A model generated the notes under the pieces. It saw nothing but the letters and a program-made list of their open reading frames with translations. It had not been told where the DNA came from and searched no databases. Below, piece by piece: positions 30,513 to 63,117 of a stretch of DNA of 64,000 bases. Numbering within the stretch: the stretch's first letter is position 1; each line of letters begins with the position of its first letter. The DNA is from Butyrivibrio sp. YAB3001 (GTDB lineage Bacteria; Bacillota; Clostridia; Lachnospirales; Lachnospiraceae). The DNA lies in the NCBI RefSeq assembly GCF_900112195.1, contig NZ_FOKR01000011.1, forward strand, positions 62,001 through 126,000. Direction: 5' to 3'. Made by a program: the position numbers and the translations under genes.

Positions 30513-30514
30513 TT

Positions 30515-32548: not shown

Positions 32549-32614
32549 TGCAAATATTGCACCACTAAGGAGTATAGAACGGAAATAATAGTAATTGAAG
32601 GGAGGTAAAAAAGA

Positions 32615-36226: not shown

Positions 36227-38347
36227 ATGATGAGGAAAAAATCTATTATCTTATTGGCTGCGATGATTATTCCACTGATTTCATTAAATACATTTAGAAC
36301 GAACTCTATAACTTGTTATGCTGCTGAAACTGCGGCAAAGCAGCCGGTTGTAGGAGTAACGTATGTATTTGGTGAAAAGTCAAAATATGATTTTTCTGCA
36401 CCAGAAAGCTCTGAAGCAACATCTAAGGATAATACATATGGTTCGTTTGAAATCTCTGGCGATATTTCTAATACAACGACCAAGGATGGGATGCCGTCTT
36501 ATGGAGTTAATGGTGGTAATTTGCAGTTTATATATACCTACGATGATACTATGCTTAATGCTACCGGAGCGCAGGAACATTTTGTCGATGATAAGACAAA
36601 GACTATAAATGATATAACTTTAGATAATGACATTTTAAAGGGTGCATTAGTATTACAAACATCTAAAGATGGAAAAGTATGGTATACGGTACCAAATGAA
36701 ACAGAAACCAATTTATTTGCAACTGATAAAGTTAGAACTGAGTCGTTCTATACTACTACGGACACACAGTTAATGAATGGTTGCTATTACAGGATAATAA
36801 TAGCTTATAAGACTGAGAAGACAGTTGGGACTAATAAAATATTGTTTGTAAAGACAGATGATAAGGAATATCACAAGTACGCTGAGGTATATTCTTTCTA
36901 CGCATATGATGCTACCGCGGTAAAAGTAAAAGTCCCAGAGGATGATAACCGTATGAATATGGGCAAGGTAGTAAGGTGCACTGATTATGATTCATATGGT
37001 GGAGCAAAAGACATAGATAATGAGGATCCGCACTCTGGATGGTCTATTGGCTCATTTTTCGTTGGTGGTTATACAGATAGTGTGGTTGACTCACAGACTA
37101 AAAGAACAGTATTTCTAAAGAACAACGGAGATCGTATCAGTCTGTGGTTTGATTTGGAGCAAAATATAAATCAATGCAGAAATAACCCGGATATAAAGAT
37201 TGTTGCTGATACTAAGGGCTATGATAAGGGATTTGATGTGCCTGGTGGTGTTAATGAGACAATGGATTTTGGTAAAGGCGTCCTTATGATCAGGCAGAAA
37301 TATAAGGACAATACATATTCTGATCCACAGGTATATACAAACTTTCTTGAGGCGGGAGCATCTCCGGATGCTACGACCAAGGTCGACTTGTTTGAAGAAG
37401 GCGATTATGAAGTTGCTTTGGATTACGCCGTAAAATATAACAAAACAAAACTGTTTGGAAAGACTATAGCTCCGCAGACTAATCACTACAGAATTGCATT
37501 TGAATTTGAGGTTCGAAATGGTAATACGTTGGTGTTCTTGAAAGATACTGCAACAGGGTCGGATCTTTCTAATGGTTCAATAACTGAGAATGGATTTTAT
37601 ATTGACCTGGCAAATTCTCAGTACCTGAAAGTTCACGTAAAACGTGAAGTGCTCAAGGATGGGTTTGACGGTCTTTCTGAAGATACTAAATTTAATAGCA
37701 GTGCGACAAATGGGGATAGATTCACCAAAGAAGGGGTATATACAGTTACCGTATCAAATCAATACAACAACGCTTCAACTGAAAAGCGAATATATGTAGG
37801 TAAGGACAATATACTTAAGGCCTATATGGTTACTGGGCTGTCAATATCAGAAATACAAGAGCAGCTAGAATTAGGTGCAACTATTGAAGATGATGGTACA
37901 TTGATACCTCCGCCGGAACCAGAACCGGAACCGGAGCCAGAACCTGAGCTGACAGCTGAACAGGATAATGGTGTCGAAGGAGCTGCTACGGATTCATCAT
38001 TAGGAAATACTAGCGTCACTGAAAATGCTCAAACATCTGAGAATACTAAGTCTACACCAAAAGAAACAGTTGGACAGGATTCCTCCATTGAGAATAAGGC
38101 ATCTACAGGTAAAGGTAACGATGAGAAAAAAGAAATCATGAATGATAAAAAGGATGAAAAGGGGAAAACACCGAAATTACCTGTTGTACCGATTTCAATT
38201 GGGATAGTTATACTGGGATTTGTTGCATGGAAGAGAAAAGAATTAGTTGCTCTTTTTTCATCGAAAGATCAAGAACAGAAAGAAAACCACATAAACAATG
38301 ATGCTGCAGTTAGCAACGAAAGTGATAAGGAGGACGAGAATAAATGA
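36227..38347 (+). CDS. Secreted, membrane-anchored surface protein of unknown function
   Basis: The 706-residue protein has a signal peptide (residues ~1-32, ending TCYAAE), a long extracellular beta-rich region, a proline-glutamate spacer (PPEPEPEPEPEP at ~565-580), a Thr/Ser/Asn-rich stalk, one membrane helix (~652-668) preceded by KLPVVP, and a ~38-residue charged cytoplasmic tail. It lacks a true LPxTG sorting motif, so it is held by the helix. No enzymatic motif is visible. The gene overlaps the toxin lipoprotein gene by ATGA, suggesting the two are made together and may act together at the surface. Confidence 0.8.
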   Translation: MMRKKSIILLAAMIIPLISLNTFRTNSITCYAAETAAKQPVVGVTYVFGEKSKYDFSAPESSEATSKDNTYGSFEISGDISNTTTKDGMPSYGVNGGNLQFIYTYDDTMLNATGAQEHFVDDKTKTINDITLDNDILKGALVLQTSKDGKVWYTVPNETETNLFATDKVRTESFYTTTDTQLMNGCYYRIIIAYKTEKTVGTNKILFVKTDDKEYHKYAEVYSFYAYDATAVKVKVPEDDNRMNMGKVVRCTDYDSYGGAKDIDNEDPHSGWSIGSFFVGGYTDSVVDSQTKRTVFLKNNGDRISLWFDLEQNINQCRNNPDIKIVADTKGYDKGFDVPGGVNETMDFGKGVLMIRQKYKDNTYSDPQVYTNFLEAGASPDATTKVDLFEEGDYEVALDYAVKYNKTKLFGKTIAPQTNHYRIAFEFEVRNGNTLVFLKDTATGSDLSNGSITENGFYIDLANSQYLKVHVKREVLKDGFDGLSEDTKFNSSATNGDRFTKEGVYTVTVSNQYNNASTEKRIYVGKDNILKAYMVTGLSISEIQEQLELGATIEDDGTLIPPPEPEPEPEPEPELTAEQDNGVEGAATDSSLGNTSVTENAQTSENTKSTPKETVGQDSSIENKASTGKGNDEKKEIMNDKKDEKGKTPKLPVVPISIGIVILGFVAWKRKELVALFSSKDQEQKENHINNDAAVSNESDKEDENK

Positions 38348-39603
38348 AAAAGTCAATTGCCCTTATCTTAAGTATGGTACTAGTTCTGACTGGTTGTGCA
38401 TCACCAGTCTCCGAAAGTAATAATGAAGCTGTTAATATGGCATCCGAGGAATCTGCGACAATAGAGACAGCAGTTAACAATGTGGATGAAACAGTACCAG
38501 AAGAGACAGAAATTCATTCGGAAACTGCTACAACGAATGCTGAGAACTTATCATTTTCAGGATTGGATGATGAAGAGTTACTTACTTATGTCCAGAATAA
38601 AGTATATTCTGATGTGGTGAGCGGGCTTAATAGTGATGAATACTTTGTCGAAAATGTAGAAGCTATTTATGTTTCCGAAGAGTATATAGAGGAACTGACA
38701 TATAACTCACAATCAAACATTTTCTTTGGATACACTCTCGATGAATTAAATAATATGTTCCAGGGTTCTCGCTACATCTTTACCGTAGATGATAATGGTC
38801 AGACGGTAGTGCAGGAGATGGAAACATTTTATGATGATTCTGCTCAAAAAATGCTTGAGAACGTAGCTATAGGCAGCGGGGTTATACTCTTATGTGTAAC
38901 AGTGTCAGTTGTATCAGGAGGTCTTGGAGCGCCTGCAGTTAGCATGATATTTATGGCTAGTGCTAAGACCGGAACTGCATTTGCACTTTCATCTGCTGTT
39001 TTGGGTGGCGCTGCCACGGCTATAACAACTGGATATCAGACTTCTGATGTAGAGCAGGCATTTGAGCAGGGGATGTATGCGGCCAGCGAAGGTTTTAAAT
39101 GGGGCGCTATATCGGGAGCAATTGTAGGTGGCGTTAGTGAAGGCACTGCGCTCTATGGAGCAGCAAAGCAGACAAACTTCACTATGAACCAGTATGCAAA
39201 GATTCAGCAGGAGACAGGATATCCTCTAGATGTAATCAAAGAATTCCATAGTATGGAAGAGTATCAGGTATTTAAAGACGCCAATTTAAAGTCTACTATG
39301 GTAGGCAATAAATCTGCATTGGTACGAACAGATATAGATTTGATGCAAGTTGATGCAAAGGGCCGAACGAATCTTGAGAGAATGAGACAAGGATTAGCTC
39401 CTCAGGATTCGAATGGAGTATCTTATCAGCTTCATCACATCGGCCAGAAAAAAGATGGCACATTAGCAATTCTTTCTGAGGCAGAACATGACAATCCTGC
39501 TTTGCACGGCTTCCTTGAAAGAACAGAAGCTCATGCACCTGGCAATAACTGGGATGCTGAAAGGAAAGCTTTTTGGGAAGCATATGCAGCCATGGTTGGT
39601 TAA
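38344..39603 (+). CDS. Lipoprotein polymorphic toxin with C-terminal LHH (HNH/EndoVII-type) nuclease domain
   Basis: The 419-residue protein begins with a lipoprotein signal (VLVLTGC, acylated Cys18), then an acidic Ser/Glu/Thr-rich stretch, an alpha-helical region (~75-165), a hydrophobic glycine-rich segment (~175-265, AVSMIFMASAKTGTAFALSSAVLGGAATA) like pre-toxin membrane-insertion regions, and a C-terminal ~85 residues with YQLHHIGQ (LHH at 363-365), AEHDNPALHGF and RTEAHAPGNNW. LHH/WHH-type domains are metal-dependent DNases of polymorphic toxins. The lipoprotein N-terminus is an unusual delivery module. It is followed 16 bases later by a SMI1/KNR4-type gene, the classical immunity arrangement. 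Confidence 0.8.
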   Translation: MKKSIALILSMVLVLTGCASPVSESNNEAVNMASEESATIETAVNNVDETVPEETEIHSETATTNAENLSFSGLDDEELLTYVQNKVYSDVVSGLNSDEYFVENVEAIYVSEEYIEELTYNSQSNIFFGYTLDELNNMFQGSRYIFTVDDNGQTVVQEMETFYDDSAQKMLENVAIGSGVILLCVTVSVVSGGLGAPAVSMIFMASAKTGTAFALSSAVLGGAATAITTGYQTSDVEQAFEQGMYAASEGFKWGAISGAIVGGVSEGTALYGAAKQTNFTMNQYAKIQQETGYPLDVIKEFHSMEEYQVFKDANLKSTMVGNKSALVRTDIDLMQVDAKGRTNLERMRQGLAPQDSNGVSYQLHHIGQKKDGTLAILSEAEHDNPALHGFLERTEAHAPGNNWDAERKAFWEAYAAMVG

Positions 39604-39619
39604 TTGGGAGGTACGAACT

Positions 39620-40018
39620 ATGAGTAAAATAACAGAAGCATTTGAGAATAAAAGAAACTTTTATAGTGAAAAAGGTGCCTCATCCGAAGAAATAATAGAT
39701 GCTGAGAAAAAGCTTGAAGTCAAATTTGCTGATGATTATAAAGAGTATCTTAAGCTTTATGGATCGGTTTCTTGTGCTGGTCATGAATTGACTGGAATTA
39801 GCGCAGACGCCAATCTGGATGTAGTGAATGCTACATTAAAGCAGTATAAGAAAAATCCAAATGTTAACGAACCGTTCTATGTTATCGAAGATACTCATAT
39901 GGATGGAATAGTAATATGGCAGACCGAATCAGGAGAAGTATTTCAGTCAGAGTATAAAGAAGCACCTTTGAAAGTATATGGTTCCTTAGCGGAATATGTT
40001 TCCTCTTTTGAGAATTGA
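39620..40018 (+). CDS. SMI1/KNR4 family immunity protein
   Basis: The 132-residue acidic protein has the SMI1/KNR4 (SUKH) pattern: ASSEEIIDAEKKLEVKFADDYKEYLKLYGSVS, then GHELTGIS and a late WQTESGEVFQ with SLAEYVSSF. SUKH proteins neutralise many polymorphic nuclease toxins by binding the toxin domain. The ATG at 39620 after GGGAGG is chosen; the frame is open further upstream inside the toxin gene without a ribosome site. Its place directly after the LHH nuclease gene makes it the likely cognate antidote. Confidence 0.88.
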   Translation: MSKITEAFENKRNFYSEKGASSEEIIDAEKKLEVKFADDYKEYLKLYGSVSCAGHELTGISADANLDVVNATLKQYKKNPNVNEPFYVIEDTHMDGIVIWQTESGEVFQSEYKEAPLKVYGSLAEYVSSFEN

Positions 40019-41760: not shown

Positions 41761-43236
41761 ATGAGTGAAATAGCTAATAATCTTGAACAGAGAGCAAATG
41801 AATTTGTGATGGAATGCAAGAATTATCCTGATGAAGAAATTAGTAAGATAGTAGCTGGAATGGTTGCAATAATAGAAGGTAATGAAGCAACGTACGAACG
41901 TATGAAAAATCAGAAATGGTTTGAACGCATTTGGTATGGGCTTACTTTACAAAATAAGGCAACTGTAAAGGAAATGCATGCAAAACGCGAAGAGCTTACC
42001 AAATATACCGTTAGAATTATAGTTAAGATGAATATGATTCTAGCAGAGCATGGTAATTGTATTTTCGATTTATATAGAGCAGTTGCAATTGTTAGAAGAG
42101 ATATTGATTTACTTACAGATCAGGTTTCTGCTCTTGCACAAAAATTAAATGAGAAAATAATAAGTGTCGATCAGTATTATTTTTTAATTAATGAAATACG
42201 CAATCGAAAATTCAGTGTTGAAACACCTTTATTAAGCTTGATTAATATATTGTCTTTTATTGACAGTCGTGCATCAAAAGATAAGGCTAAGCTCGTCCAG
42301 TTAAAAGAAACTATGGAAGAGATGGGATTTGATTTTTCTAAGGAAGTAACAGTATCACATTACGCCGAAGAAATTCTTTCATTACCAAAAGAAAGTGTGG
42401 GTAGAATATTACTATTTTGCCAAAATTTTGCAAATAGAAGTCGCTTTATGGCATTTACTTGCTCTCTAATGGAAAACTATTTCTACCAGTGGGAGTCAGA
42501 AAGACATTTATCAAAGGCTAATGGAGAAGCTTTATCGCTTGCGCTAAATAGTAATAATCTACATGCATCAGATACATGTATAATTGGAGAACTTTTTGAT
42601 GATATAACAAAGGAATTACCGAATGAATTTGATATTGTAGATATTTCATTTCAGGAAATATCTACGGAAATTCCTGCAAGACGTTTTACTAGAAAATCGA
42701 CTAAGGCATTGAATATTATTGTTACAGGGACAGCTGGTGCAGGAAAGACTACGCTAATCAATTCGATTTTTGGGTGGAATTGTGAAGTTACGGGACAAGT
42801 GAAACAATCAGTAAGTAAATACTCAAATGACGAAGATAGTTTATGCTTATTTGAAACTGCAGGATTTTATTTTGATAATGTGGTAAACGATGAGATATTT
42901 AGGAGTATTGAGCAACTTAAACACCAACATGATAATTGTGTTGTTTGGTATTGTATTAATTCTCGTGGAAATCGGGTGGACACTCCATTTATTGAACGTA
43001 TTTATGGCATAAAACTTCCTATAGTTATTGTTCTTACTCAATCTATCATTGAAGACAATTTATTAGAGAACGAAATAAAGCAAATGATACAGAGTAGAAA
43101 TATGAGTAAAGTAAACTGTGTTTCAGTGGTTGCGAAAGAATATGAGAAACCTGCCAAAGTGCCAGTAGAAGGCTTGGAGGATTTGATTGATTCTACGATT
43201 GGTATAAGCAGTTGCGATAATTCAAATATAGGGTGA
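41761..43236 (+). CDS. GTPase 1 of 3: large helical domain fused to a C-terminal GTPase
   Basis: The 491-residue protein has ~310 mostly helical residues followed by a GTP-binding domain. Walker A/G1 is GTAGAGKT (323-330) then TLINSIFG; G3 is ETAG (365-368) where DxxG is expected; the signature WYCIN is at 396-400; and G4 is LTQS (425-428) where N/TKxD is expected. The chain ends soon after, so the membrane helices present after the G domain of GTPase 2 are missing. The helical N-terminal half may play that part or contact partners. It shares the WYCINSxxNR signature with the next two genes. Two bases separate it from the upstream membrane protein gene. Confidence 0.8.
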   Translation: MSEIANNLEQRANEFVMECKNYPDEEISKIVAGMVAIIEGNEATYERMKNQKWFERIWYGLTLQNKATVKEMHAKREELTKYTVRIIVKMNMILAEHGNCIFDLYRAVAIVRRDIDLLTDQVSALAQKLNEKIISVDQYYFLINEIRNRKFSVETPLLSLINILSFIDSRASKDKAKLVQLKETMEEMGFDFSKEVTVSHYAEEILSLPKESVGRILLFCQNFANRSRFMAFTCSLMENYFYQWESERHLSKANGEALSLALNSNNLHASDTCIIGELFDDITKELPNEFDIVDISFQEISTEIPARRFTRKSTKALNIIVTGTAGAGKTTLINSIFGWNCEVTGQVKQSVSKYSNDEDSLCLFETAGFYFDNVVNDEIFRSIEQLKHQHDNCVVWYCINSRGNRVDTPFIERIYGIKLPIVIVLTQSIIEDNLLENEIKQMIQSRNMSKVNCVSVVAKEYEKPAKVPVEGLEDLIDSTIGISSCDNSNIG

Positions 43237-43329
43237 AGTTTTTAGGAAAGTAAAATTATAAGACTGGGATGTGTATTTGGAGAAATAATTGGATTTTTGA
43301 TACTTTCATATTTGCTCTAGAGGGAAAAA

Positions 43330-44367
43330 ATGAATAATGTCAACATAGTGGTAATGGGAAAAACAGGCTTTGGAAAAAGCACACTAATTAATGCAGTATT
43401 GAGCGAGGAAGTTGCGGCCACTGGAACTGGACATGCAATAACTAAAAAAAATGAAAAGTACAGCAAACAGGTAGACTTGCCGTTAGGTAAGAAGAATGCG
43501 TTGGTTAGTTGTAATTTGAATATGTATGACACGGTTGGGTTAGAAATTGATAATTCGATCACTGAACAAACGCTTGAGAACATAAAGGAAGAAATCGAGC
43601 GTACGAAGCAAGGTTTGGCGGTAAACGATATTTATGTTGTTTGGTTTTGTGTTAATGATAGGAGTAATCGATTTGAGTCTTATGAGATTGAGCTTATAAA
43701 AAAACTTTCGATAGATTATGAAATACCATTTATCATTGTCCTTACTCAGTGCATTTCGGAAGATGAAGGAGAATTGCCAAGGCAAATTAGAAGAAATCTA
43801 CCTGACATTCCGATGCAGAAAGTGTTGGCTAAGGATTATTCTACAAGAGGTGGAAAGGTAGAGGCTTTTGGAGTTAATGATTTACTGAAAAAAAGCATAA
43901 ATGATTATAAAAAACTTCGGGTAAAAATATTAGAACAGAAAATTGATAATCTAGATGAAAATCGTAAATTAAGAATTGAGCAGATTGAAAGTAGAGGAAA
44001 GGCAGTTGTTTCAGGTTATTCGTCGGCTGCGAAAAAAATTGGATTTGTACCTGGAGGATGTATTCCGATTGTCCATGGTATGTGTATAAAAATGATTTCT
44101 GATCTTAATGGAATTGCTGGAATAAAGTCAGGAGGAGATCTGGCTGCTGAGGTTTTTGCACTTATTACATTCGGGATAATTGCATCACCATTTATGGCTG
44201 TTCCGTTAGTAAGTTCGTTGATCGCGTCTATTTACGTTGAAACTGTTGGTGATTTTTACTTGGAAGCTTTGGTTAAAGTTATTCATTTGTCTACAGATAA
44301 AGAATTAAAAGATAATGAGCTGATAAAGAAAAGACTTAAAGAAGAGCTTTCAAAGTTAAAAAAGTAG
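43330..44367 (+). CDS. GTPase 2 of 3: dynamin/IRG-like GTPase with C-terminal hydrophobic region
   Basis: The 345-residue protein starts almost directly at the G domain: G1 GKTGFGKS (10-17), a G2-like threonine in AATGTGHAIT, G3 DTVG (67-70), signature WFCVNDRSNR (~105-114) and G4 LTQC (138-141). Residues ~215-310 are hydrophobic (KKIGFVPGGCIPIVHGM, VFALITFGIIASPFMAVPLVSSLIAS), like the DUF697-type membrane region of bacterial Era-like GTPases, then a charged helical end. G4 lacks the canonical TKxD aspartate, so base specificity may be relaxed. It is 93 bases after GTPase 1 and 11 bases before GTPase 3. Confidence 0.82.
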   Translation: MNNVNIVVMGKTGFGKSTLINAVLSEEVAATGTGHAITKKNEKYSKQVDLPLGKKNALVSCNLNMYDTVGLEIDNSITEQTLENIKEEIERTKQGLAVNDIYVVWFCVNDRSNRFESYEIELIKKLSIDYEIPFIIVLTQCISEDEGELPRQIRRNLPDIPMQKVLAKDYSTRGGKVEAFGVNDLLKKSINDYKKLRVKILEQKIDNLDENRKLRIEQIESRGKAVVSGYSSAAKKIGFVPGGCIPIVHGMCIKMISDLNGIAGIKSGGDLAAEVFALITFGIIASPFMAVPLVSSLIASIYVETVGDFYLEALVKVIHLSTDKELKDNELIKKRLKEELSKLKK

Positions 44368-44378
44368 GAGGATGAATA

Positions 44379-45575
44379 ATGGCTAGTGTTACTGGTGAGC
44401 AAAAGTTCAATCAGAAAAAAGATGAGCTCGAAAAGAATTTAGATGAGAGATTAAATGCAGATAATTTACCTGATGCAAACATCATGGTTGTAGGAATTAC
44501 TGGAACAGGGAAAAGCACTTTGATAAATGCGGTATTTGGTAGTGAACTGGCAGCAACTGGAAGCGGACAACCAGTAACAGACCATATATCAGAATATAAG
44601 AGCAATGATACTCATATAAATATTTGGGATACTATTGGGTTGGAATTGGATTCTGAAAAGACAAAAGAATCAATTAAATCAATACGAGCAAAAATTGCAT
44701 CTAAAGCGGAGTCTGAGGATCCGTACGATAGAATACATGCTATATGGTATTGTATTAATTCGGGAAGTAATCGTTATCAAGGTGCAGAGCTAGAATTTAT
44801 AAAGGAGCTGTATACTATTGGAGTTCCGTTTATTATAGTGTTGACACAATGTTCCGGAGATGAGGAAGAGGTGAATGCATTTGAAGCGGAAATTAAGAAA
44901 ATCAATTCTTCGATGAACATGGACGACATTAAAGTGGTTCAAGTACTGGCTTTGCCGGTTAAATATCGAGGACAAGCAGAACCAATTCCTGCGTTTGGAC
45001 TAGATGAGTTAGTTAATGTAACTTTACAGCTACTACCTGACTTTATAAAAAGCGGTTTTATTGCTGCGCAAAAAGTTAGCCAAAACCAAAAACGAAGTGA
45101 ATGTGAGGGAATTATATGTGAATATGTTAGGGCAGCACAATTAGATTTTTGGGATAGGGTGCCACTTGTTAATGTTGGAAGAACTGGTAGAAATATTATG
45201 AATATGTTTAGAAAGATTGGTGAGATGTATAATACGGTATTGTCCGAGGAGAGTATAAAAGAAATAATGGATAAATGTCACGTTGATAAAGAAAATAAAT
45301 TCTTTGGGCTTATAAGTCCTATTGATATGGGATATAGTAAAAAAATAACTGCATTATTAGAGCAGAAAAAGGATGAAGGTTTTTCTGTTGAGGTATCTGA
45401 TGTAGAAAGCAAATATCGCGCCGCAAGAATGATAGCTTTTTATGGATATACATTTGTGGATGCCATTGAAGAATTGTGGAGGAACTTGACAGAAGAACAA
45501 CTTAAAAACGTTGATATGGTCGTAAGAGAACTTATTGGAATTATTAATGCCAAGCTGAAGGCACGTGTCAAATGA
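44379..45575 (+). CDS. GTPase 3 of 3: Era-like GTPase with C-terminal helical domain
   Basis: The 398-residue protein has G1 GITGTGKS (39-46), AATGSGQPVT in the switch I region, G3 DTIG (84-87), signature WYCINSGSNR (~123-132) and G4 LTQC (155-158). A further segment VLALPVKYRGQAEPIPAFGLDELV resembles the matching part of GTPase 2. The C-terminal ~190 residues are helical with two weakly hydrophobic stretches. It is clearly a paralogue of the two preceding genes. GGAGG precedes the ATG. It is followed 13 bases later by a 35-codon membrane peptide gene. Confidence 0.82.
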   Translation: MASVTGEQKFNQKKDELEKNLDERLNADNLPDANIMVVGITGTGKSTLINAVFGSELAATGSGQPVTDHISEYKSNDTHINIWDTIGLELDSEKTKESIKSIRAKIASKAESEDPYDRIHAIWYCINSGSNRYQGAELEFIKELYTIGVPFIIVLTQCSGDEEEVNAFEAEIKKINSSMNMDDIKVVQVLALPVKYRGQAEPIPAFGLDELVNVTLQLLPDFIKSGFIAAQKVSQNQKRSECEGIICEYVRAAQLDFWDRVPLVNVGRTGRNIMNMFRKIGEMYNTVLSEESIKEIMDKCHVDKENKFFGLISPIDMGYSKKITALLEQKKDEGFSVEVSDVESKYRAARMIAFYGYTFVDAIEELWRNLTEEQLKNVDMVVRELIGIINAKLKARVK

Positions 45576-45588
45576 AAGGAGATTTACT

Positions 45589-45696
45589 ATGAAGGAGAAA
45601 GGGGCAAATGATGTAATCACTGTTATTGTGGCGGGAGTAATAATATTCGGAATTTTAGGCGGGTTATTATTTGTAGATAAATACGCGAGTCGTTAA
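45589..45696 (+). CDS. 35-residue single-helix membrane protein at the end of the GTPase cluster
   Basis: AAAGGAG at 45576 region, eight bases before the ATG at 45589, opens a 35-residue frame: a short charged start (MKEKGAND), one strong membrane helix (VITVIVAGVIIFGILGGLLFV) and a basic tail (DKYASR). The ribosome site is as good as those of the flanking genes, and the gap to GTPase 3 is 13 bases, so it is probably translated as part of the cluster. Single-helix peptides of this size can be toxins, pore subunits or regulators of membrane partners. No family is recognised. Confidence 0.65.
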   Translation: MKEKGANDVITVIVAGVIIFGILGGLLFVDKYASR

Positions 45697-45697
45697 C

Positions 45698-45763
45698 TGC
45701 GACGTTTTGCGACAAAATGCGACGGATTGTCCCGGTTTTGCGACGAATTGCGACGTTTTGTCC
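45698..45763. repeat. Iteron-like array with 10-bp period
   Basis: TGCGAC occurs at 45698, 45708, 45718, 45739 and 45749, spaced 10 bases with one 21-base gap; TGTCC occupies the missing registers near 45728 and 45759. The unit can be written TGCGACnnnT with variable tail. Exact helical spacing places all copies on one DNA face. The array lies between the cargo block and the first conjugation gene. It is a candidate binding array for the element's RepA_N, ParB or relaxosome proteins, that is, origin, centromere or operator. Confidence 0.7.
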
Positions 45764-45800
45764 ATTGCAAGCCATTTTTAGGGATGATATTATTATAGTG

Positions 45801-45840
45801 GACAAGGGAGCAGGTAAGAGCCAAGCTTCCTTGTCTTTCT
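45801..45840 (+). terminator. Hairpin with T-rich tail after the iteron array
   Basis: GACAAGGGAGC (45801-45811) pairs with GCTTCCTTGTC (45825-45835), one wobble, followed by TTTCTT. It may terminate transcription from the cargo, or be part of a structured leader or transfer origin, since a second hairpin follows. A TATTAT-like box lies at 45791, immediately upstream. Confidence 0.5.
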
Positions 45841-45870
45841 TATGCGCATAATTGAATAAGGGAAATTTAG

Positions 45871-45921
45871 AGCGTCAGCTCATGACTGAGAAATCAGTTG
45901 TGGGTCTGGCGCTTTTCTTTT
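45871..45921 (+). terminator. Nested hairpin with T-rich tail before the conjugation operon
   Basis: AGCGTCAG (45871-45878) pairs with CTGGCGCT (45906-45913) and runs into TTTCTTTT; inside it sits a second stem ACTGA-GAAA-TCAGT (45884-45897) capped by a GNRA-type loop. The first conjugation gene starts 44 bases later, so this could be an attenuator of the transfer operon. Confidence 0.5.
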
Positions 45922-45964
45922 GCCCGAAAGCAGATGGCTCAATAAAAGAAGAGAGGAAGAAGTT

Positions 45965-47035
45965 ATGGATTTTGAAGAATTCAAAGAAGCCATTACCAAG
46001 GATGTTAAGAAAGCAGTGGATGAGCGACTTGGCACCAACACAGAGGTCGAGATCAGGCATAACAATAAGACAAACTACTCTTATGATGCTCTGATCGTAA
46101 GACCTGAGGGTGCTGAGGTTGGAGTGAGTCTTGATTCGGACCAGCTGTACAAAGGCTTTGAGAACGGAATTGATTACAACACAATCGTATCCGGAGCTGC
46201 TGATCAGGCAGCCAAAGCTCTTAAGGAAGGACCTGAGTTCGATATCGACATGTTCTCTGATTACGGTCAGATGAAGGAAAAGCTTTCAATTGAAGTCATC
46301 TCTGCTGAGAGAAATGCAGACATCCTCGTAAATGTTCCTCATAAGAACCTTGAGGATATGGCGATTGTCTACCGCTTCAATGTGGGTATGACTCCTGAGG
46401 GAAGAGGCACAATCCTGGTTACAAACGACATGCTTGATAAGTACGGAATCACTGCAGAGCAGCTTCATGCTGATGCTCTGGAGAGTGCTCCTGAGATCAG
46501 GCCTGTAGTTATCAAGGGAATGTCAGAATTCCTTGCAGAGATGATGGGTGCTGAACAGGCAGAAATGCTTGGTTTTGCACCTGTTCAGGATGAGCCGGTA
46601 CTTGTGGCATCTGTTCCTGACAACATCAAGGGAGCCGGAATCATAGCCTACACCGACTTTATGGATAAAGCGGCTGAGAGGATTGGCGGCGACTTCTATA
46701 TTCTCCCTGCATCGATTCACGAGGTTCTCCTTGTGAAAGATGATGGCATGGTCAGCAAGGAACACCTTGAAATGATGGTAAAAGAGGTAAATGCCACCAC
46801 GGTAGATCCTTCAGAGCAGCTTACCGATAGTGTTTACCACTACGATTCCAAGGAAAAGATCTTTGAGCTGGCTGATAAGTTTGAGGCCAGGACCAAGGGA
46901 GAGAAGGAAATCGTAGGTAAGGAGAAAGGCTCACTGATGGCTGAGATCAAGGAGAAGCAGAAAGAAGTAGCTGCAACGCCTAAGAAGGAAACACCTGAGA
47001 TCAAGCCAAAAGCTAAGGGAGGGGAAGCAAAATAA
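45965..47035 (+). CDS. DUF5688 family protein
   Basis: The 356-residue acidic, Glu/Lys-rich protein starts MDFEEFKEAITKDVKKAV and contains LVTNDMLDKYGIT and FYILPASIHEVLLV. These are typical of DUF5688, a family common in Clostridia conjugative elements whose function is not known to me. The C-terminal ~50 residues are low complexity (EKQKEVAAT, KKETPEIKPKAKG) and probably disordered. The ATG at 45965 follows GAGGAAG. It is the first gene of the conjugation block and ends 1 base before the next ATG. Confidence 0.85.
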   Translation: MDFEEFKEAITKDVKKAVDERLGTNTEVEIRHNNKTNYSYDALIVRPEGAEVGVSLDSDQLYKGFENGIDYNTIVSGAADQAAKALKEGPEFDIDMFSDYGQMKEKLSIEVISAERNADILVNVPHKNLEDMAIVYRFNVGMTPEGRGTILVTNDMLDKYGITAEQLHADALESAPEIRPVVIKGMSEFLAEMMGAEQAEMLGFAPVQDEPVLVASVPDNIKGAGIIAYTDFMDKAAERIGGDFYILPASIHEVLLVKDDGMVSKEHLEMMVKEVNATTVDPSEQLTDSVYHYDSKEKIFELADKFEARTKGEKEIVGKEKGSLMAEIKEKQKEVAATPKKETPEIKPKAKGGEAK

Positions 47036-47036
47036 G

Positions 47037-47285
47037 ATGATTTTTTCGAAGGATAAGCCAAAGAACTGCCGCGGTTGTCAGCATAAAGACGTCTGCGACG
47101 GAGTAAAAAGAAGATGTGTATACAGACAGGAAAAGCTGGAAAAGAACTTTGGGGATGACTACCCATGTAAAGGCTGTTGTTATGGGGAGTGTAGCAGAAT
47201 CTGCTTCCCCTGCTATAAGAACCTTTTAGGACAGCCGGGAATAAAAGAGTGGGAAGCTGCGCACCCGAAGGTCAACCTCGGATAA
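47037..47285 (+). CDS. Small cysteine-rich protein
   Basis: The 82-residue product contains eleven cysteines in CxxC-like groups (CRGCQHKDVC, CVYRQ, CKGCCYGEC, CFPC), suggesting one or more zinc sites or an iron-sulfur cluster. No family recognised. It begins 1 base after the upstream stop, so it is translationally coupled to the DUF5688 gene. Its role in transfer or regulation is unknown. Confidence 0.7.
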   Translation: MIFSKDKPKNCRGCQHKDVCDGVKRRCVYRQEKLEKNFGDDYPCKGCCYGECSRICFPCYKNLLGQPGIKEWEAAHPKVNLG

Positions 47286-47328: not shown

Positions 47329-47433
47329 ATGGAAGTTTATGAATTTGACGACGTTGTCGTTATAGTCATGAAGGGGGTGACGCTGATTGCAATCAGATCA
47401 GACGACGAAAGAGAGCATCGAGTTCTGCTATAG
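47329..47433 (+). CDS. 34-codon ORF with strong ribosome site, overlapping the DUF3801 gene
   Basis: AAAGGGGGA directly upstream of the ATG at 47329 opens a 34-residue frame (MEVYEFDDVVVIVM...REHRVLL) ending at TAG 47431-47433. It overlaps the TTG-started DUF3801 gene by 47 bases in another frame. It may be a real small protein or a coupling leader that helps initiation at the weak TTG. Confidence 0.4.
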   Translation: MEVYEFDDVVVIVMKGVTLIAIRSDDEREHRVLL

Positions 47434-47881
47434 GCGTGCACTTCAGGCAAAAGACCTTACTGCCAGGAATCTGGTAAGGCTCATAAAGCTTGCAAAATTC
47501 ATCTGCAATAAGGTCAAAGAATCAAAGGACCCGGAAGTAAAGCATGGGAAGATGAAGATAAAGGACCTGATCCGAAAGGATGAAGGTGCTACCAGCGTTG
47601 ATGTTTCCAAGACAGAGCTTAGGGATTTCAAGAGAGTAGCCAAAAGATATGGCGTTGACTTCGCTATTGTGAAACACAAGACTGAAGATAAGACGCTGTA
47701 CTCAGTATTCTTCAAGGCTAAAGATCAGGAAGCCATAAACGATCTGATCAATTACTACACGGAGAAAAGGCTCTTGAAGGAGAGCAGGCCTTCTCTTAGG
47801 GAACATCTTAAGGAACTGAAGGACAAAGTCAAAAATGCTCCCCATAAGATCATTCACAGGGCAAAGGAGAGGAGCAGATGA
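47387..47881 (+). CDS. DUF3801/PcfB family conjugation protein
   Basis: The 164-residue basic protein has the PcfB-type core KFICNKVKESKDPEVKHGKMKIKDLIRKDEGATSVDVSKTEL (seen in pieces) and YGVDFAIVKHKTEDKTLYSVFFKAKD, with a strongly basic end (HRAKERSR). PcfB of plasmid pCF10 works with the coupling protein in relaxosome recruitment. The TTG start at 47387 follows GGGGGTG. It overlaps the VirD4-type gene by 4 bases, consistent with a joint function. Confidence 0.85.
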   Translation: MQSDQTTKESIEFCYRRALQAKDLTARNLVRLIKLAKFICNKVKESKDPEVKHGKMKIKDLIRKDEGATSVDVSKTELRDFKRVAKRYGVDFAIVKHKTEDKTLYSVFFKAKDQEAINDLINYYTEKRLLKESRPSLREHLKELKDKVKNAPHKIIHRAKERSR

Positions 47882-49506
47882 TTACATTAGATACTCTTCT
47901 CCATAACCCCAGGGCTCTTATCGGAATCATTGGCTTTGTTGTGATGATGCTGGTCTTAACCATCTGGGACAAAAGGGAAAATAGGCGAAATTTTAAGAAA
48001 CGCATAGAATTTGGTTCTGCCAAATGGGGAACCAAAAAGGACATAGAGCCCTACATAGACCCAGTGTTTGACCAGAATGTCATTCTTTCGGAATCTGAGA
48101 TGCTGACAATGAACTCAAGACCTGAGAATCCCAAGTACGCCAGGAACAAAAACGTCATGGTAATTGGTGGTTCCGGTTCAGGTAAGACGAGATTCTTTGT
48201 TAAGCCCAACCTTCTTCAGATGCACTCATCCTATGTGGTTACTGATCCAAAGGGTCAGCTTCTACCAGAAACGGGGACAGCTCTTTTGAAAAATGGATAC
48301 AGGATCAAGGTGTTTAACTCTATCAACTTCAAGAAGAGTATGCATTATAACCCATTTATGTATATCCATTCGGAAAAAGACATCCTGAAGTTGGTCAGTG
48401 TACTCATGCTAAATACCAAGGGTGAAGGCAGTGGATCAAATTCCGATCCCTTCTGGGACAAAGCAGAAAGGCTGCTGTACACAGCGCTCATAGGATATAT
48501 CCATTATGAAGCGCCAAAAGCTGAGCAGAATTTCACCACACTTCTTGAGATGATCAATGCAATGGAAGTCAGAGAGGATGATGAGAACTTCAAAAATGCT
48601 ATCGATCTCCTTTTTGATGAACTTGAGGAAAAAGATCCCGAGCACTTTGCAGTAAGGCAGTACAAGAAATATAAACTTGCTGCCGGCAAGACTGCTAAGT
48701 CTATTTTGGTTTCCTGCGGTGCTAGAATGGCTCCTTTTGATATTGCGGAGCTGCGGGAACTTACTTCCTATGATGAGCTGGAGCTTGATACCTTAGGGGA
48801 TGAGAAGACAGCTCTTTTCCTGATCATGTCAGATACGGATGGAACATTCTCATTCCTCATAAGCATGATCTACACTCAGCTATTTAACCTTTTGTGTGAA
48901 AAAGCTGATGATGTGTATGGGGGAAGGCTTCCGGTCCATGTAAGGTGCCTCATCGATGAGTTCGCCAACTGCGGAAAGATTCCGGGGATAGAAAGACTTG
49001 TAGCCACAATCCGAAGCAGAGAGATTTCAGCCTGTATAATTCTTCAGGCCAAGTCCCAGTTAAAGGCAATCTACAAGGATGATTCCGAGACTATTGTGGG
49101 CAACATGGATTCTCAGATATTCCTTGGCGGAACCGAGCAGAACACGCTCAAAGATTTAAACGCCATCCTGGGAAAAGAGACAATCGACTATATCAACCTT
49201 CAGGACACAAGGGGCAACTCAGAGAGTAAAGCCAACAATTTCCAGAAGGCAGGTCGTGATCTTATGACCATGGATGAGCTGGCTGTTATGGATGGTGGAA
49301 AATGTATCGTTCAGGTTCGAGGTGTAAGACCATTTCTTTCAAAGAAATATGACCTGACACAGCATCCACGCTACAAACAGACAGCGGATTACAGCAAAAA
49401 GAACTATTTCGATATCGAGAAGTTCTTGAAGCAAAAAGACAACTTAATATTGAAACCCGATGACGAGTACATAGTCATCGACGAAAATGAAGCAGGTAAC
49501 TATTAA
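47878..49506 (+). CDS. VirD4/TraG-type type IV coupling protein
   Basis: This membrane-anchored ATPase links the relaxosome to the secretion channel. The 542-residue protein has one N-terminal membrane helix (~13-30), Walker A GGSGSGKT at 97-104, the segment YVVTDPKGQLLPETG, Walker B-like VRCLIDEFANCGKIPG and the family tail region QAKSQLKAIY...DSQIFLGG. Its size matches Tn1549-type TraG proteins. It starts in a 4-base overlap with the DUF3801 gene. Confidence 0.95.
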   Translation: MITLDTLLHNPRALIGIIGFVVMMLVLTIWDKRENRRNFKKRIEFGSAKWGTKKDIEPYIDPVFDQNVILSESEMLTMNSRPENPKYARNKNVMVIGGSGSGKTRFFVKPNLLQMHSSYVVTDPKGQLLPETGTALLKNGYRIKVFNSINFKKSMHYNPFMYIHSEKDILKLVSVLMLNTKGEGSGSNSDPFWDKAERLLYTALIGYIHYEAPKAEQNFTTLLEMINAMEVREDDENFKNAIDLLFDELEEKDPEHFAVRQYKKYKLAAGKTAKSILVSCGARMAPFDIAELRELTSYDELELDTLGDEKTALFLIMSDTDGTFSFLISMIYTQLFNLLCEKADDVYGGRLPVHVRCLIDEFANCGKIPGIERLVATIRSREISACIILQAKSQLKAIYKDDSETIVGNMDSQIFLGGTEQNTLKDLNAILGKETIDYINLQDTRGNSESKANNFQKAGRDLMTMDELAVMDGGKCIVQVRGVRPFLSKKYDLTQHPRYKQTADYSKKNYFDIEKFLKQKDNLILKPDDEYIVIDENEAGNY

Positions 49507-49568
49507 CCGGCATCCCAGCATCACGAGGGGTGTCGCTAACCAAAAACAATTATTGGAGGAAAAGAATT

Positions 49569-49781
49569 ATGGCATTTTTTCAGAGCAGCGTAACAGTTTT
49601 ACAGACACTTGTAATCGCACTTGGTGCAGGTCTTGGTATCTGGGGTGGTGTAAACCTCATGGAGGGCTACGGCGGAGATAACCCTGGAGCAAAGTCTCAG
49701 GGTATGAAGCAGTTGATGGCTGGTGGCGGAATCGCCCTCATCGGTACCACACTTGTACCTCTTCTTGCAGGTCTTTTCTGA
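49569..49781 (+). CDS. Maff2 family small membrane protein (VirB2-like pilin candidate)
   Basis: The 70-residue protein has two hydrophobic helices (residues ~8-25 and ~47-68) around a polar loop (EGYGGDNPGAKSQGMKQ), the pattern of Maff2 proteins in Clostridia conjugative elements and of VirB2/TrbC pilins. The ATG at 49569 after GGAGG is used; the reading from 49530 lacks a site. It is followed by a strong terminator at 49807, which would let this gene be expressed at a higher level than the rest, as expected for a structural subunit. Confidence 0.85.
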   Translation: MAFFQSSVTVLQTLVIALGAGLGIWGGVNLMEGYGGDNPGAKSQGMKQLMAGGGIALIGTTLVPLLAGLF

Positions 49782-49806
49782 TCCGCGAGGAGGGAAGGAA
49801 TCAGGT

Positions 49807-49833
49807 CGGGGAGTAACAACTCCCCGGCTTTTT
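49807..49833 (+). terminator. Strong intrinsic terminator inside the transfer operon
   Basis: CGGGGAGT (49807-49814), loop AACA, and ACTCCCCG (49819-49826) form a perfect GC-rich stem followed by GCTTTTT. It lies between the Maff2 gene and the TrbL gene, which continues in the same direction, so it is probably a partial terminator that lowers downstream expression. Confidence 0.85.
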
Positions 49834-49863
49834 CCAAATTAGTAGAAATAATGGAGGGCATGA

Positions 49864-50730
49864 ATGGAAGCCGTACTTGAACAAATAGAAGAGTGGGTTA
49901 GAAACATGCTCATTGAAGGAATAATGGAACACCTGACAGGCGTCTTTGACTCGATGAATACAGAAGTAGGCGAAGTCACAAACATTGTTGGCCAGACACC
50001 GGCAAGCTTTATGCCTTCAGTCTATAACCTGATCAGAAATCTGTCAGAGAACGTGATAATGCCTGTGGCGGGAATAATACTTACGTTTATTGCCTGCTAC
50101 GAGCTTATCCAGCTTGTTATAAGTCACAACAATCTTGCGAACTTTGAGACCTGGATTTTTTTCAAGTGGGTTCTCAAAACCTTTGTTGCAGTAACACTTA
50201 TCACAAACACTTTTACCATAACCATGGCAGTATTTGATGTTGCCAAATGGATAATCGACCAAAGCGGAGGAATAATAGCAGCCAGCACGGCAATTGATGC
50301 ATCAGCTCTTGCCGGTATGCAGTCTACACTTGAAGCAATGGAGACCGGAGAACTATTCAGTGTCTTTTTACAGACCTTTGTTCTTCAGTTCCTTGTAAGA
50401 GTAGCAGCAATCTTTATTTACATCATAGTGAATGGAAGAATGGTGGAGATCTATCTTACAATCTCCCTTGCACCTATTCCTTTTTCAACCTTCGGAAATC
50501 AGGAACAGTCCCAGATTGGGCAGAATTATTTCAGATCAGTATGTGCTCTTGGATTCCAGGGATTCCTTATTATGGTCTGCGTAGGAATATATGCAGTGCT
50601 TATCCAGTCGATAGCATTTTCATCTGATATCATGGGCTCACTTTGGAAAGCGTTTGGATTTACGGTACTCTTGGGATTCACACTTCTTAAGACCGGTTCT
50701 ATAGCAAAGAGTATTGTTCATGCACATTAA
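49864..50730 (+). CDS. TrbL/VirB6-type conjugation membrane protein
   Basis: The 288-residue polytopic protein has an amphipathic N-terminus (EQIEEWVRNMLIEGIMEHLTG read in pieces) and about six hydrophobic helices from residue ~55. It also carries the family-like segments PVAGIILTFIACYELIQ and LAPIPFSTFGNQEQSQIGQNYFRS. It would form part of the inner-membrane channel of the type IV secretion system. The start has a GGAGGG site. It is followed 11 bases later by the PrgI-like gene. Confidence 0.88.
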   Translation: MEAVLEQIEEWVRNMLIEGIMEHLTGVFDSMNTEVGEVTNIVGQTPASFMPSVYNLIRNLSENVIMPVAGIILTFIACYELIQLVISHNNLANFETWIFFKWVLKTFVAVTLITNTFTITMAVFDVAKWIIDQSGGIIAASTAIDASALAGMQSTLEAMETGELFSVFLQTFVLQFLVRVAAIFIYIIVNGRMVEIYLTISLAPIPFSTFGNQEQSQIGQNYFRSVCALGFQGFLIMVCVGIYAVLIQSIAFSSDIMGSLWKAFGFTVLLGFTLLKTGSIAKSIVHAH

Positions 50731-50741
50731 GAAGGAGGGCT

Positions 50742-51170
50742 ATGGCAAATTATATCAGCGTACCTCGTGATTTTTCCAAGGTTAAATCCAAGGTATGTTT
50801 CAACCTGACTAAAAGGCAGCTTATATGCTTTTCACTTGGGGCGATGATTGGTGTTCCGACATTTTTCCTGATAAAAAGACTTGGCAATGTAACAGTGGCA
50901 ACACTGGGGATGATGATCTCCATGATGCCGCTGTTTTTTCTTGCCATGTATGAAAAGAATGAGCAGCCGCTTGAGGTGTTCTTGGAGCATTTCATAGATG
51001 CGACTTTTGAAAGACCCAAGAAACGCCCATATATAACACAAAATTATTATGCTCTGCTTGCTAAGATAGCGGAGCTGGAAAGGAAAATAAAGACAGATGA
51101 TAAGACCTTTTCAAAGGACAGACAAAAAGAAAAACGTCCCGGAAAGCGCTCAGGCAAGCATTCCCTTTGA
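50742..51170 (+). CDS. PrgI family conjugation protein
   Basis: The 142-residue protein starts YISVPRDFSKVKSKVCFNLTKRQLICFSLG, a strong match to PrgI-type proteins (VirB3-like), with two membrane helices (~35-75 region) and the basic segment FERPKKRPYITQNYY. It precedes and overlaps the VirB4 gene by 74 bases, the usual pairing in this family of elements. Confidence 0.88.
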   Translation: MANYISVPRDFSKVKSKVCFNLTKRQLICFSLGAMIGVPTFFLIKRLGNVTVATLGMMISMMPLFFLAMYEKNEQPLEVFLEHFIDATFERPKKRPYITQNYYALLAKIAELERKIKTDDKTFSKDRQKEKRPGKRSGKHSL

Positions 51171-53472
51171 GCGAATGTTTCCTGACGGTATCTGCAGAGT
51201 AGGGAAAGACTTTTACTCAAAGACGATACAGTTTCAGGATATTAACTATCAGCTGGCGCAGCAGGAAGACCAGACAGAGATTTTCGAAGAGTGGTGCAGC
51301 TTCCTGAATTTCTTTGACAGTTCTGTGCATTTTCAGTTGTCTTTTCTGAATATGTCCACAGATGCAGAGAAGTTTGAGAAAAAGATAGCTATAAGGCACA
51401 GAGATGATGGCTATGACAGAGTCCGAGATGAATACAGCCGAATGCTCTTTCGTCAGATGCAGGCAGGAAACAACGGACTTACAAAGACCAAGTATCTTAC
51501 CTTTGGTATTCACGCAGATTCAATGAAGAGTGCGAAGCCACGACTCATCCATATTGAGACAGATCTTCTCAATAATTTCAAACGTCTTGGAGTCCTGGCG
51601 CAGACCCTTAATGGAAAAGAGAGACTGGAGCTTATGCACGCTCAGTTCCATATGGGAGATGATGCCAAGTTCTTCTTTGACTGGAAAGATACAGTAAGAG
51701 CAGGCGCTTCCGTTAAGGATGCAATTGCTCCATCAAGCTTTGAATTTGTGAACGGAAGGCTGTTTAAGGTGGGTGAGACTTACGGAACAGTCAGCTTCCT
51801 TCAGATTACGGCATCAGATATAAGTGACAGAATGCTGGCAGATTTCCTCAGTATGGAATCCAGCCAGATTATCACAATGCATCTGCAGTCAGTAAATCAG
51901 AATGAGGCTATAAAGACAATCAAGCACACTATCACAGAGCTGGATCGTTCCAAGATTGAGGAGCAGAAAAAGGCTGTTCGTGCCGGTTACGACATGGACA
52001 TAATTCCTTCAGATCTTGCCACTTACGGCAAAGATGCCAAGGCACTTCTGAAGGAGCTGCAGTCTCAGAATGAGCGAATGTTCCTCATGACATTTATTAT
52101 TATGAATACCGGAAGCAGCAAACAGGACCTTGAGAACAATTTCTTCCAGGCAAACAGTATTGCCCAGAAGCATAACTGTAATTTGGTCCGCCTCGACTTC
52201 CAGCAGGAGCAGGGGCTTATGAGCATGCTCCCTCTTGCAAGTAATCTAATCGATATCAGAAGGGGAATGACAACCTCATCAACAGCGATCTTTGTGCCAT
52301 TCACCACACAGGAGTTGTTCCAGACGGGAAAAGAGTCTTTGTATTATGGACTTAATGCTCTTTCCAACAACCTTATCATGGTGGACAGAAAGATGCTTAA
52401 GAATCCTAATGGACTTATCCTTGGCACACCTGGTTCCGGTAAGTCTTTTTCTGCTAAAAGAGAAATCGCAAATGCCTTTCTTGTGACGGATGACGATATC
52501 ATTATCTCTGATCCTGAAGCAGAGTACAGGCCCCTGGTGGAACACTTTGGTGGACAGGTGATCAAGATCAGTCCTACCTCAGATCAGTATATCAACCCCA
52601 TGGACATCAACATGAACTACAGCGACGATGATAATCCTATCATGTTGAAAGCAGATTTCATTCTGTCACTCTGTGAGCTGATTGTTGGTGGAAAGGATGG
52701 ACTTCTTCCTGTGGAAAAGACCGTTATAGACAGATGCATTCATCAGATCTATCTGAGGTATTTTGAAGACCCAAGACCTGAGAATATGCCTCTTTTGGAA
52801 GATCTCTATAATGAGCTCTTAAAGCAGGATGAAGCTGAGGCCAAGCACGTGGCGACAGCTCTTGAAATTTATGTTTCAGGTTCCCTGAACGTGTTCAACC
52901 ACAGGACCAACGTAGATATCAAGAACAGGATTGTCTGCTATGACATAAAGGATCTTGGTAAGCAGCTTAAGAAGATTGGCATGTTGATTGTTCAGGATCA
53001 GGTCTGGGGAAGAGTCTCGTCCAACAGAGAATCCGGAAAGTCCACCAGGTACTACTTAGATGAGATGCACTTACTTTTGAAGGAAGATCAGACAGCAGCC
53101 TACACGGTTGAAATTTGGAAGAGATTTCGTAAGTGGGGCGGCATCCCGACTGGTCTGACACAGAACGTCAAGGATCTTCTTGCTTCCAAGGAAGTTGAGA
53201 ATATCTTTGAAAACTCTGATTTTGTTTACATGCTTAATCAGGCCGTTGGCGACAGACAGATTCTTGCAAAGCAGCTGAATATCAGCCCTCATCAGCTCTC
53301 GTATGTAACCCATTCGGGAGAAGGTGAAGGGCTTTTATTTTACGGAAATGTAATTCTGCCATTTGTAGACAGATTCCCTAAGGACCTTGAGCTATACAGT
53401 ATCATGACCACGAAACCACAGGAGGTTCAGGAGGCGAAAGTGGCAGAGGAAAAGCAAAAGGAGCTGGCATAA
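51097..53472 (+). CDS. VirB4/TraE-type conjugation ATPase
   Basis: This 791-residue secretion ATPase energises the type IV channel. The N-terminal CagE/TrbE region includes SIPFERMFPDGICRVGKDFYSKTIQF. The C-terminal ATPase has Walker A GTPGSGKS at ~443-450, SDPEAEYRPLVEHFGG and Walker B YYLDEMHLLL near residue 655. The ATG at 51097 lies within the PrgI gene; the first conserved block begins ~20 residues later, so a slightly later start is possible. It ends directly against the NlpC/P60 gene. Confidence 0.95.
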   Translation: MIRPFQRTDKKKNVPESAQASIPFERMFPDGICRVGKDFYSKTIQFQDINYQLAQQEDQTEIFEEWCSFLNFFDSSVHFQLSFLNMSTDAEKFEKKIAIRHRDDGYDRVRDEYSRMLFRQMQAGNNGLTKTKYLTFGIHADSMKSAKPRLIHIETDLLNNFKRLGVLAQTLNGKERLELMHAQFHMGDDAKFFFDWKDTVRAGASVKDAIAPSSFEFVNGRLFKVGETYGTVSFLQITASDISDRMLADFLSMESSQIITMHLQSVNQNEAIKTIKHTITELDRSKIEEQKKAVRAGYDMDIIPSDLATYGKDAKALLKELQSQNERMFLMTFIIMNTGSSKQDLENNFFQANSIAQKHNCNLVRLDFQQEQGLMSMLPLASNLIDIRRGMTTSSTAIFVPFTTQELFQTGKESLYYGLNALSNNLIMVDRKMLKNPNGLILGTPGSGKSFSAKREIANAFLVTDDDIIISDPEAEYRPLVEHFGGQVIKISPTSDQYINPMDINMNYSDDDNPIMLKADFILSLCELIVGGKDGLLPVEKTVIDRCIHQIYLRYFEDPRPENMPLLEDLYNELLKQDEAEAKHVATALEIYVSGSLNVFNHRTNVDIKNRIVCYDIKDLGKQLKKIGMLIVQDQVWGRVSSNRESGKSTRYYLDEMHLLLKEDQTAAYTVEIWKRFRKWGGIPTGLTQNVKDLLASKEVENIFENSDFVYMLNQAVGDRQILAKQLNISPHQLSYVTHSGEGEGLLFYGNVILPFVDRFPKDLELYSIMTTKPQEVQEAKVAEEKQKELA

Positions 53473-55125: not shown

Positions 55126-55134
55126 GAGGAAGGC

Positions 55135-55431
55135 ATGAACGAGAGAATTGAAAGACTCCGTGAAGAGCTGGAAAGGGCGAGGCAGAGAAAAGCCGAAGCT
55201 GATCAGAGAGTAAAGAACTGTGAGACAAGGCTTAAGGAAGCTGAGAACAACCAGTTCATCGCAGAAATGAGGAAGCTTGATCTCAGACCTGAAGAGGTTG
55301 CAAGGATTCTTCAGAAAGCTCTTGAGGAGAGACAGGCTGAAGCAGCTGCTGAGATATTTGCTATGAAAACTCCTGCAGCTGATAGTTACGAAGATGAAGA
55401 AAGTGAGGTTTTAGAGGATGAAGAAATTTAA
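55135..55431 (+). CDS. DUF4315 family protein
   Basis: The 98-residue, highly charged helical protein (MNERIERLREELERARQRKAEAD, then LDLRPEEVARIL) fits DUF4315, found next to NlpC/P60 and DUF4366 genes in Tn1549/CTn-type elements. The first ~45 residues form a coiled coil. The function is not established. A GGAGG site precedes it, and its 3' end overlaps the next gene by 14 bases. Confidence 0.88.
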   Translation: MNERIERLREELERARQRKAEADQRVKNCETRLKEAENNQFIAEMRKLDLRPEEVARILQKALEERQAEAAAEIFAMKTPAADSYEDEESEVLEDEEI

Positions 55432-62237: not shown

Positions 62238-62324
62238 ACGATATTGGCAATTGTTGCTTAAAAACGGTTGTCTGTTCTTGTTGAGATGATAATATATTTA
62301 TTCTCAACTGGGGAAAGGAAAGAC

Positions 62325-63065: not shown

Positions 63066-63078
63066 AAACATATTATGA

Positions 63079-63100: not shown

Positions 63101-63117
63101 AAGGAGGGCTTGTTCAT

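Follow-up and report, generated by a model that had tools for sequence, protein, structure and literature searches.

The window, the whole 64,000-nucleotide stretch of Butyrivibrio sp. YAB3001 DNA that was analysed, holds cargo and transfer genes of an integrative conjugative element. Between these two groups, at 45698-45763 on the + strand, lies a repeat array, and the gene map bears out its original description as a non-coding feature at this boundary. The transfer operon downstream is read from the same strand. Its first gene encodes a DUF5688 protein (45965-47035; PF18941, E=4e-90) and its second a small Cys-rich protein of 82 aa without a Pfam match (47037-47285). These are followed by a DUF3801 gene (47387-47881; PF12687), the VirD4/TraG coupling protein (47878-49506; PF02534), genes for Maff2, TrbL, PrgI, a VirB4-like TraG-P-loop protein, NlpC/P60 and DUF4315 (49530-55431), and the relaxase (MobA/VirD2; 56421-57785; PF03432). 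A left module at 30051-33520, also on the + strand, encodes a protein with the DUF6462 domain twice, ParA, ParB, RepA_N and a RepA_N-DUF6017 protein.

The cargo side of the array encodes an LHH-nuclease protein, a SUKH protein and three GTPase-like proteins, and a 35-codon open reading frame without a Pfam match (45589-45696, +) ends just 5' of the array. The LHH-family nuclease protein and the SUKH protein that follows it (38344-40018) resemble a polymorphic toxin paired with an immunity protein. The GTPase-like proteins are encoded in succession at 41761-45575, just upstream of the array; MMR_HSR1 was matched in 3/3 and Septin and Dynamin_N in 2/3, and their genes have a DNA repeat (family D1) in common. 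Elsewhere in the window, a cobalamin riboswitch was found at 1099-1285 (Rfam RF00174, 75.8 bits). The stretch 62268-64000, together with L367:1-2702, carries an N6/N4 methylase gene (by Pfam), an XRE protein, a second methylase-like open reading frame and neighbours, a set that by eye resembles restriction-modification cargo.

The array consists of five copies of TGCGAC, beginning at 45698, 45708, 45718, 45739 and 45749, and two of TGTCC, at 45728 and 45759. Site-to-site gaps are 10, 10, 10, 11, 10 and 10, in agreement with the 10-bp period with one inserted base that had been described. The phased-site score of the array was 60 (z = 7.1), a value reached in 0/60 shuffles, and a control stretch further upstream scored 25. 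TGCGAC itself was not enriched in the window (16 copies vs 13.7 expected); the unusual feature is the clustering of the word rather than its frequency. The 4.59-Mb genome contains the pair TGCGAC-N4-TGCGAC three times, always inside the array.

The exact pattern TGCGAC-N4-TGCGAC-N4-TGTCC was absent from 396 other genomes of the family, only one of them from the same genus, and the exact TGCGAC/TGTCC array was absent from 390 genomes of the class, own genome aside. No match to the array DNA was seen in the plasmid records searched, and two viral contigs matching the pattern were judged by eye to be one unrelated locus. One near-identical copy of the array was found in G424, of the same genus; at about 8094 of L356 (G424:C33) lies a remnant with six TGCGAC copies, the promoter, the leader and a DUF5688 gene cut off after its first part. 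A CRISPR spacer in L020, an uncultured Clostridia contig (minus strand, ~4723-4765), reads TGCGAC-N4-TGCGAC-N4-TGTCC. This spacer suggests that a mobile element from another lineage may carry a similar array; the source of its sequence was not found in the 390 class genomes searched.

The last array site (45759) lies immediately 5' of a TTGCAA hexamer (45765-45770, +), the predicted -35 element, in which the first two places are TT in 34/34 relatives. It is followed, after a 17-bp spacer, by an extended -10, TGATATTAT (45785-45793, +), with a predicted start at ~45800. This site has 9/12 consensus matches, and two such sites were found in 701 bases vs 1.7 expected by chance. Because the consensus scan finds about equally many promoter-like sites when run on shuffled DNA, we base the promoter call on the relatives.

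The leader contains two hairpins that are terminator-like in our own hairpin scan: a promoter-proximal one followed by TTTCTT (45801-45835, +; -19.7 kcal/mol) and a second followed by TTCTTTT (45870-45914, +; -29.0 kcal/mol). A standard terminator scan (loops 3-8) of 45400-46100 returned no terminator, and no Rfam family was above cut-off at the leader. We compared 28 elements, chosen for having the promoter and thus not a random sample. The proximal hairpin was present in 19/28 of them, compared to 0/84 shuffled leaders (the shuffle figure refers to this hairpin), the second in 27/28, and both in 18/28.

DUF5688 was searched for in 145 relatives, of which 87 matched, and the upstream DNA of the better matches was read. 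Among 49 DUF5688 sequences (our own, 40 longer stretches and 8 short loci), 30 had an array-type promoter, four more a variant -10 and 15 none; in the last group the L267 contig was too short and several had the order DUF5688-RepN-ParA. The promoter pattern was seen in 25/79 genomes of the genus. In the plasmid records, DUF5688 was matched in two plasmids of Butyrivibrio proteoclasticus and in ten fecal 'phage' entries, and the viral contigs with the promoter pattern were phage contigs without an evident array. The better DUF5688 relatives shared this promoter and leader and had a phased array at the corresponding position, built on another word. The original prediction would have failed had related elements lacked an array at this position; the slot does hold arrays, but their words differ from TGCGAC.

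From 45 distinct promoter regions, 34 remained after those at least 80% alike were dropped. The regions were selected by the extended -10, so its conservation in the set is by choice; TT at -23/-22 (34/34) and TG at -29/-28 (19/34) were not selection criteria. Base identity within the 34 arrays peaked at lags 10 (z 10.6), 11 (z 17.0), 21 (z 6.8), 22 (z 10.8) and 33 (z 5.4); the peaks across these non-redundant arrays span lags 10-11, 21-22 and 31-33. In the upstream control stretch identity was 0.25 and 0.27 at lags 10 and 11, with maxima of 0.31-0.32 at lags 12, 21 and 33. The arrays were locked in phase to the -10: power was 36.0, compared to a mean of 3.4 and a maximum of 14.5 for random shifts, 0/1000 of which were as strong. 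By phased-site score, 29/34 arrays were above all 60 shuffles and 31/34 above 95% of them, five being not above all.

The word in the array is specific to the element. TGCGAC is found in our own element and in G424, TGTCCC in G441, GTAGAC in G407a and G410a, TTTACCCC in G423, G462, G407b and G446, TGCCCC in G458, G400 and G207, AGTTCCC in G404, TGTCTG in G430, TGTCAC in G410d, and TGATAA in G410b and G468b; further arrays have yet other words. In seven tabulated arrays the box columns were for the most part conserved in 4-5 of 5 copies, and in most arrays the spacers varied more. Among the pairs of elements compared, those with the same or a related word show DNA similarity that continues through the array; where the words differ, similarity begins downstream of it. 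Alike arrays made up 1/29 within-genome pairs and 40/1147 between-genome pairs. Co-resident arrays are no more different than others, and the pair count therefore does not support a reading in which words differ to avoid cross-talk. The layout is of a known kind, that of phage late-activator repeats, and what stands out is how the word has diversified.

The array position and period suggest, with moderate confidence, that the array is an upstream activating region of the conjugation-operon promoter, most likely read by a protein that we call Sig. A regulator would load in tandem, one molecule per helical turn, over ~-105 to -41, and would touch the RNA polymerase at the neighbouring promoter (TTGCAA / TGATATTAT), in the manner of the phage late activators Alt and Ltr. 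The same-face spacing had been read as cooperative protein loading, and for these putative binding sites that is still the best reading. The two leader hairpins, as putative terminators, suggest a second gate.

Sig is a sigma-region-4-like protein of ~182 aa encoded at G000:C21:145059-145607, outside the window and ~37 kb downstream of the array. At this right end of the element, Sig is flanked by genes for an XRE protein and for a small, excisionase-like DUF6462 protein, the latter followed by an integrase of the Tn916 type. Another DUF6462 gene, of the left-module type, lies ~2 kb past the integrase (G000:C21, ~147967), and a further element seems to be integrated in tandem there. Searches of Pfam, PHROGs and NCBIfam gave only weak sigma-70 matches to Sig, with TIGR02937 at E=9.6e-4 and PF08281 at E=0.008, both below cut-off. 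The integrase beside Sig, searched as its G410b copy, matched PF00589 (5.9e-25) and PF02920 (6.8e-13), and has the DNA-binding domain of the Tn916 integrase. In Tn916, a sigma-like orf7 occurs within a comparable order of genes. As the inferred reader of the array, Sig would, from its place beside the integrase, tie the expression of transfer genes to excision. The site consensuses, read on the promoter strand, resemble TTGACA (3.38/6 vs 2.50 for shuffled, sd 0.16, and 2.79 for the reverse strand; not every one of the 34 is independent). A sigma-4-like reader would predict such a resemblance.

Sig was found in 18/28 chosen elements, with the integrase within 4 kb in 15/18. It was not found in ten, in four of which 2.6-23.5 kb had been read rightward and in six 43.5 kb. 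Nor did any of the ten show the integrase sought (other recombinase-like frames are present in G410c), and their right end may therefore lie farther away. Among 200 family genomes, one per genus, 11 other genomes had Sig profile matches at E<1e-20. Seven stretches upstream of such loci outside the genus were read; two held DUF5688 and one, G153, an array promoter. G153 encodes both Sig and DUF5688, and its promoter carries four copies of CATACCAA, spaced 22, 11 and 11 bp. The second, G103, has Sig and DUF5688, and no array promoter was seen in the stretch inspected. Profile searches of viral contigs gave no Sig relatives, and one unannotated 7-kb fecal 'phage' record matches Sig.

To what extent Sig follows the word was assessed in pairs of elements and across the set. 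Sig was 100% identical in G407a/G410a, 99% in G423/G407b and 100% in G410b/G468b, which share a word, and 89% in G436/G400, which have related words. The same-word pairs say little alone, being closely related across much of the region they have in common. The best natural experiment for word vs reader is the pair G207/G430: TraG is 99%, VirB4 100% and the relaxase 96% identical, whereas Sig is 27% identical and the words are TGCCCC vs TGTCTG. These two elements also differ everywhere left of -148, and the word reader could therefore be encoded there. In G468a, Sig is 98-99% identical to that of G423/G407b, yet word similarity is only partial (0.68).

Across 17 elements (G450b, which has Sig, and the ten elements without a found Sig are omitted), Sig identity correlated with word similarity (Mantel r 0.44, 0/5000 permutations). 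This was the highest Pearson value of ten proteins, the others giving 0.18-0.38 (with fewer pairs for most, and with only Sig permuted); the comparison included neither the XRE and DUF6462 proteins nor the Cys-rich and ~140-aa ones. After near-identical elements had been collapsed, which left 12, the value was 0.23 for Sig and 0.29 for NlpC, and the partial correlation given TraG was 0.39 for Sig and 0.38 for the relaxase. By rank correlation with the word, CD1107 was above Sig (0.33 vs 0.18 and 0.32 vs 0.28). The set-wide correlation between Sig and word similarity thus appears positive and is not decisive.

Other candidate readers were examined among the proteins of these elements. ParB, ParA and DUF6462 are weakened as readers by not being found in 7/28 array elements. 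For the XRE protein, the recognition-helix letters of G207 and G404 are identical and their words different though related. DUF5688 reaches 94 and 97% identity between elements whose words differ, RepA_N-DUF6017 has 14 differences in 302 between G207 and G430, and MobC falls within a DNA block that is 95% identical between these two. In the block that G207 and G430 share, the most divergent proteins are the ~140-aa one (47%) and the Cys-rich one (72%). The former follows the word in two of the pairs (47%, 80%) but was not found in our own element; the Cys-rich protein of the second gene follows it partly (72%, 77%) and is a possible reader. In G410d, a 128-aa protein with two similar HTH-like repeats is encoded at -652 to -265 and ends at the array start; its motif was unseen in the other elements of the set of 28, apart from one doubtful match in G410b. 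PhoB/OmpR boxes are direct repeats ~11 bp apart that abut the -35, a layout like the one described here. No OmpR-type regulator was met inside the element stretches when nine genomes were searched with PF00486; one match, in G450, is located upstream of a further array promoter, at a distance of 17.5 kb.

A possible though rather doubtful alternative keeps the regulatory array and gives it another element-encoded reader, such as a DUF6462 winged helix (left or right) or a protein encoded in the variable left part. A DUF6462 oligomer would pack head-to-tail, one DNA turn per molecule, as BldC and RdfS do. The right-end DUF6462 protein has a weak HTH_17 match (E=4.6e-5, below cut-off), and the left one is 60-66% identical to the G441, G450a and G453 copies, with ParA at 84-89%. 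However, DUF6462 was missing at E≤1e-3 in 7/28 elements (G404, G425, G207, G410c, G410d, G466 and G468b), with weaker matches in G404 and G410d, and in G407a/G410a the arrays are 0.99 alike while DUF6462 is 86% and ParA 99% identical. According to PMC11963761, rdfS heads a conjugation operon, RdfS is needed for both excision and conjugation, and RdfS and BldC load DNA in tandem head-to-tail. Tandem loading would be alike in the two systems; the word here is strict and element-specific, whereas that source describes RdfS as without a clear consensus.

It is unlikely that the array loads a Q-like antitermination factor, in which case the promoter would be constitutive and transcription would stop at the leader hairpins unless the polymerase were modified. 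Lambda Q binds within the promoter, unlike the long upstream array seen here. The extended -10, the 17-bp spacer and the paired hairpins of 18/28 leaders would suit such a factor, but the hairpins are terminator-like by our own scan only, the standard one having given none. Antitermination is reported for Tn916 (PMC11658703) and pLS20 (PMC8955417), which resemble the present locus in having a Gram-positive conjugation operon behind terminators, here putative ones. Intrinsic curvature, in which phased A/T stretches bend DNA and aid polymerase without a specific reader, is improbable: A/T-rich spacers do return every 10-11 bp, but in most of the seven tabulated arrays it is the boxes that are kept and the spacers that are more variable, and the array letters are kept in the G424 remnant. 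Tandem phased repeats are typical of iterons, centromeres and oriT accessory sites, and the original prediction proposed these functions. They are now highly improbable, as the array abuts the promoter and its position is fixed to the -10 in relatives, with rep/par 12-16 kb and the relaxase gene 10.7 kb away. The rep genes (32183-33520) lie 12 kb from the array and carry their own 23-bp-spaced repeats, parAB lies at 30509-32183 with ParA/ParB unseen in 7/28 array elements in the stretches read, and the relaxase gene, at 56421, is not beside the array. The three repeats with 23-bp spacing, at 33002-33074 inside the RepA_N/DUF6017 gene, are a likely replication origin of the element.

The proposed activation from the array, with Sig as the putative reader, has its closest parallel in the phage late activators of the Alt/Ltr/RinA group, in which direct repeats lie just 5' of the promoter of a long operon. 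As given in PMC13123087, TP901-1 Alt has four direct repeats at -76 to -32 of the late promoter and phi13 Ltr four at -107 to -42, where repeat deletion abolished promoter activity. The tandem repeats here, at ~-105 to -41, fall within the ~-107 to -32 range of these systems. Phage late promoters drive late genes, whereas the array promoter drives conjugation genes; the Ltr gene adjoins its target promoter, whereas Sig is 37 kb away and the upstream neighbours of the array are the GTPase-like proteins and the 35-codon frame. Library searches gave no relation of Sig to phage regulators above cut-off. By analogy, the array may work like phage late-activator repeats, and by gene position it is not a member of the group. 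Tn916, compared here for its Porf7 and canT, has its transfer genes transcribed from Porf7 once the element has excised and circularised, whereas the operon here has its own array promoter.

Among the literature matches listed, none dealt with this transfer control region by title or start of abstract, and none with DUF5688. The array points to where transfer is probably controlled in a family of conjugative elements. More tentatively, conjugation operons of a large integrative-element family may be switched by private address codes, in which a Sig-like activator and an array of ~4-7 sites have co-diversified. If the pairing is true, natural Sig/word pairs would be a ready-made specificity code, and cross-activation between co-resident elements would be testable. 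If such address codes exist, each element would switch on its own transfer genes, much like phage immunity groups.
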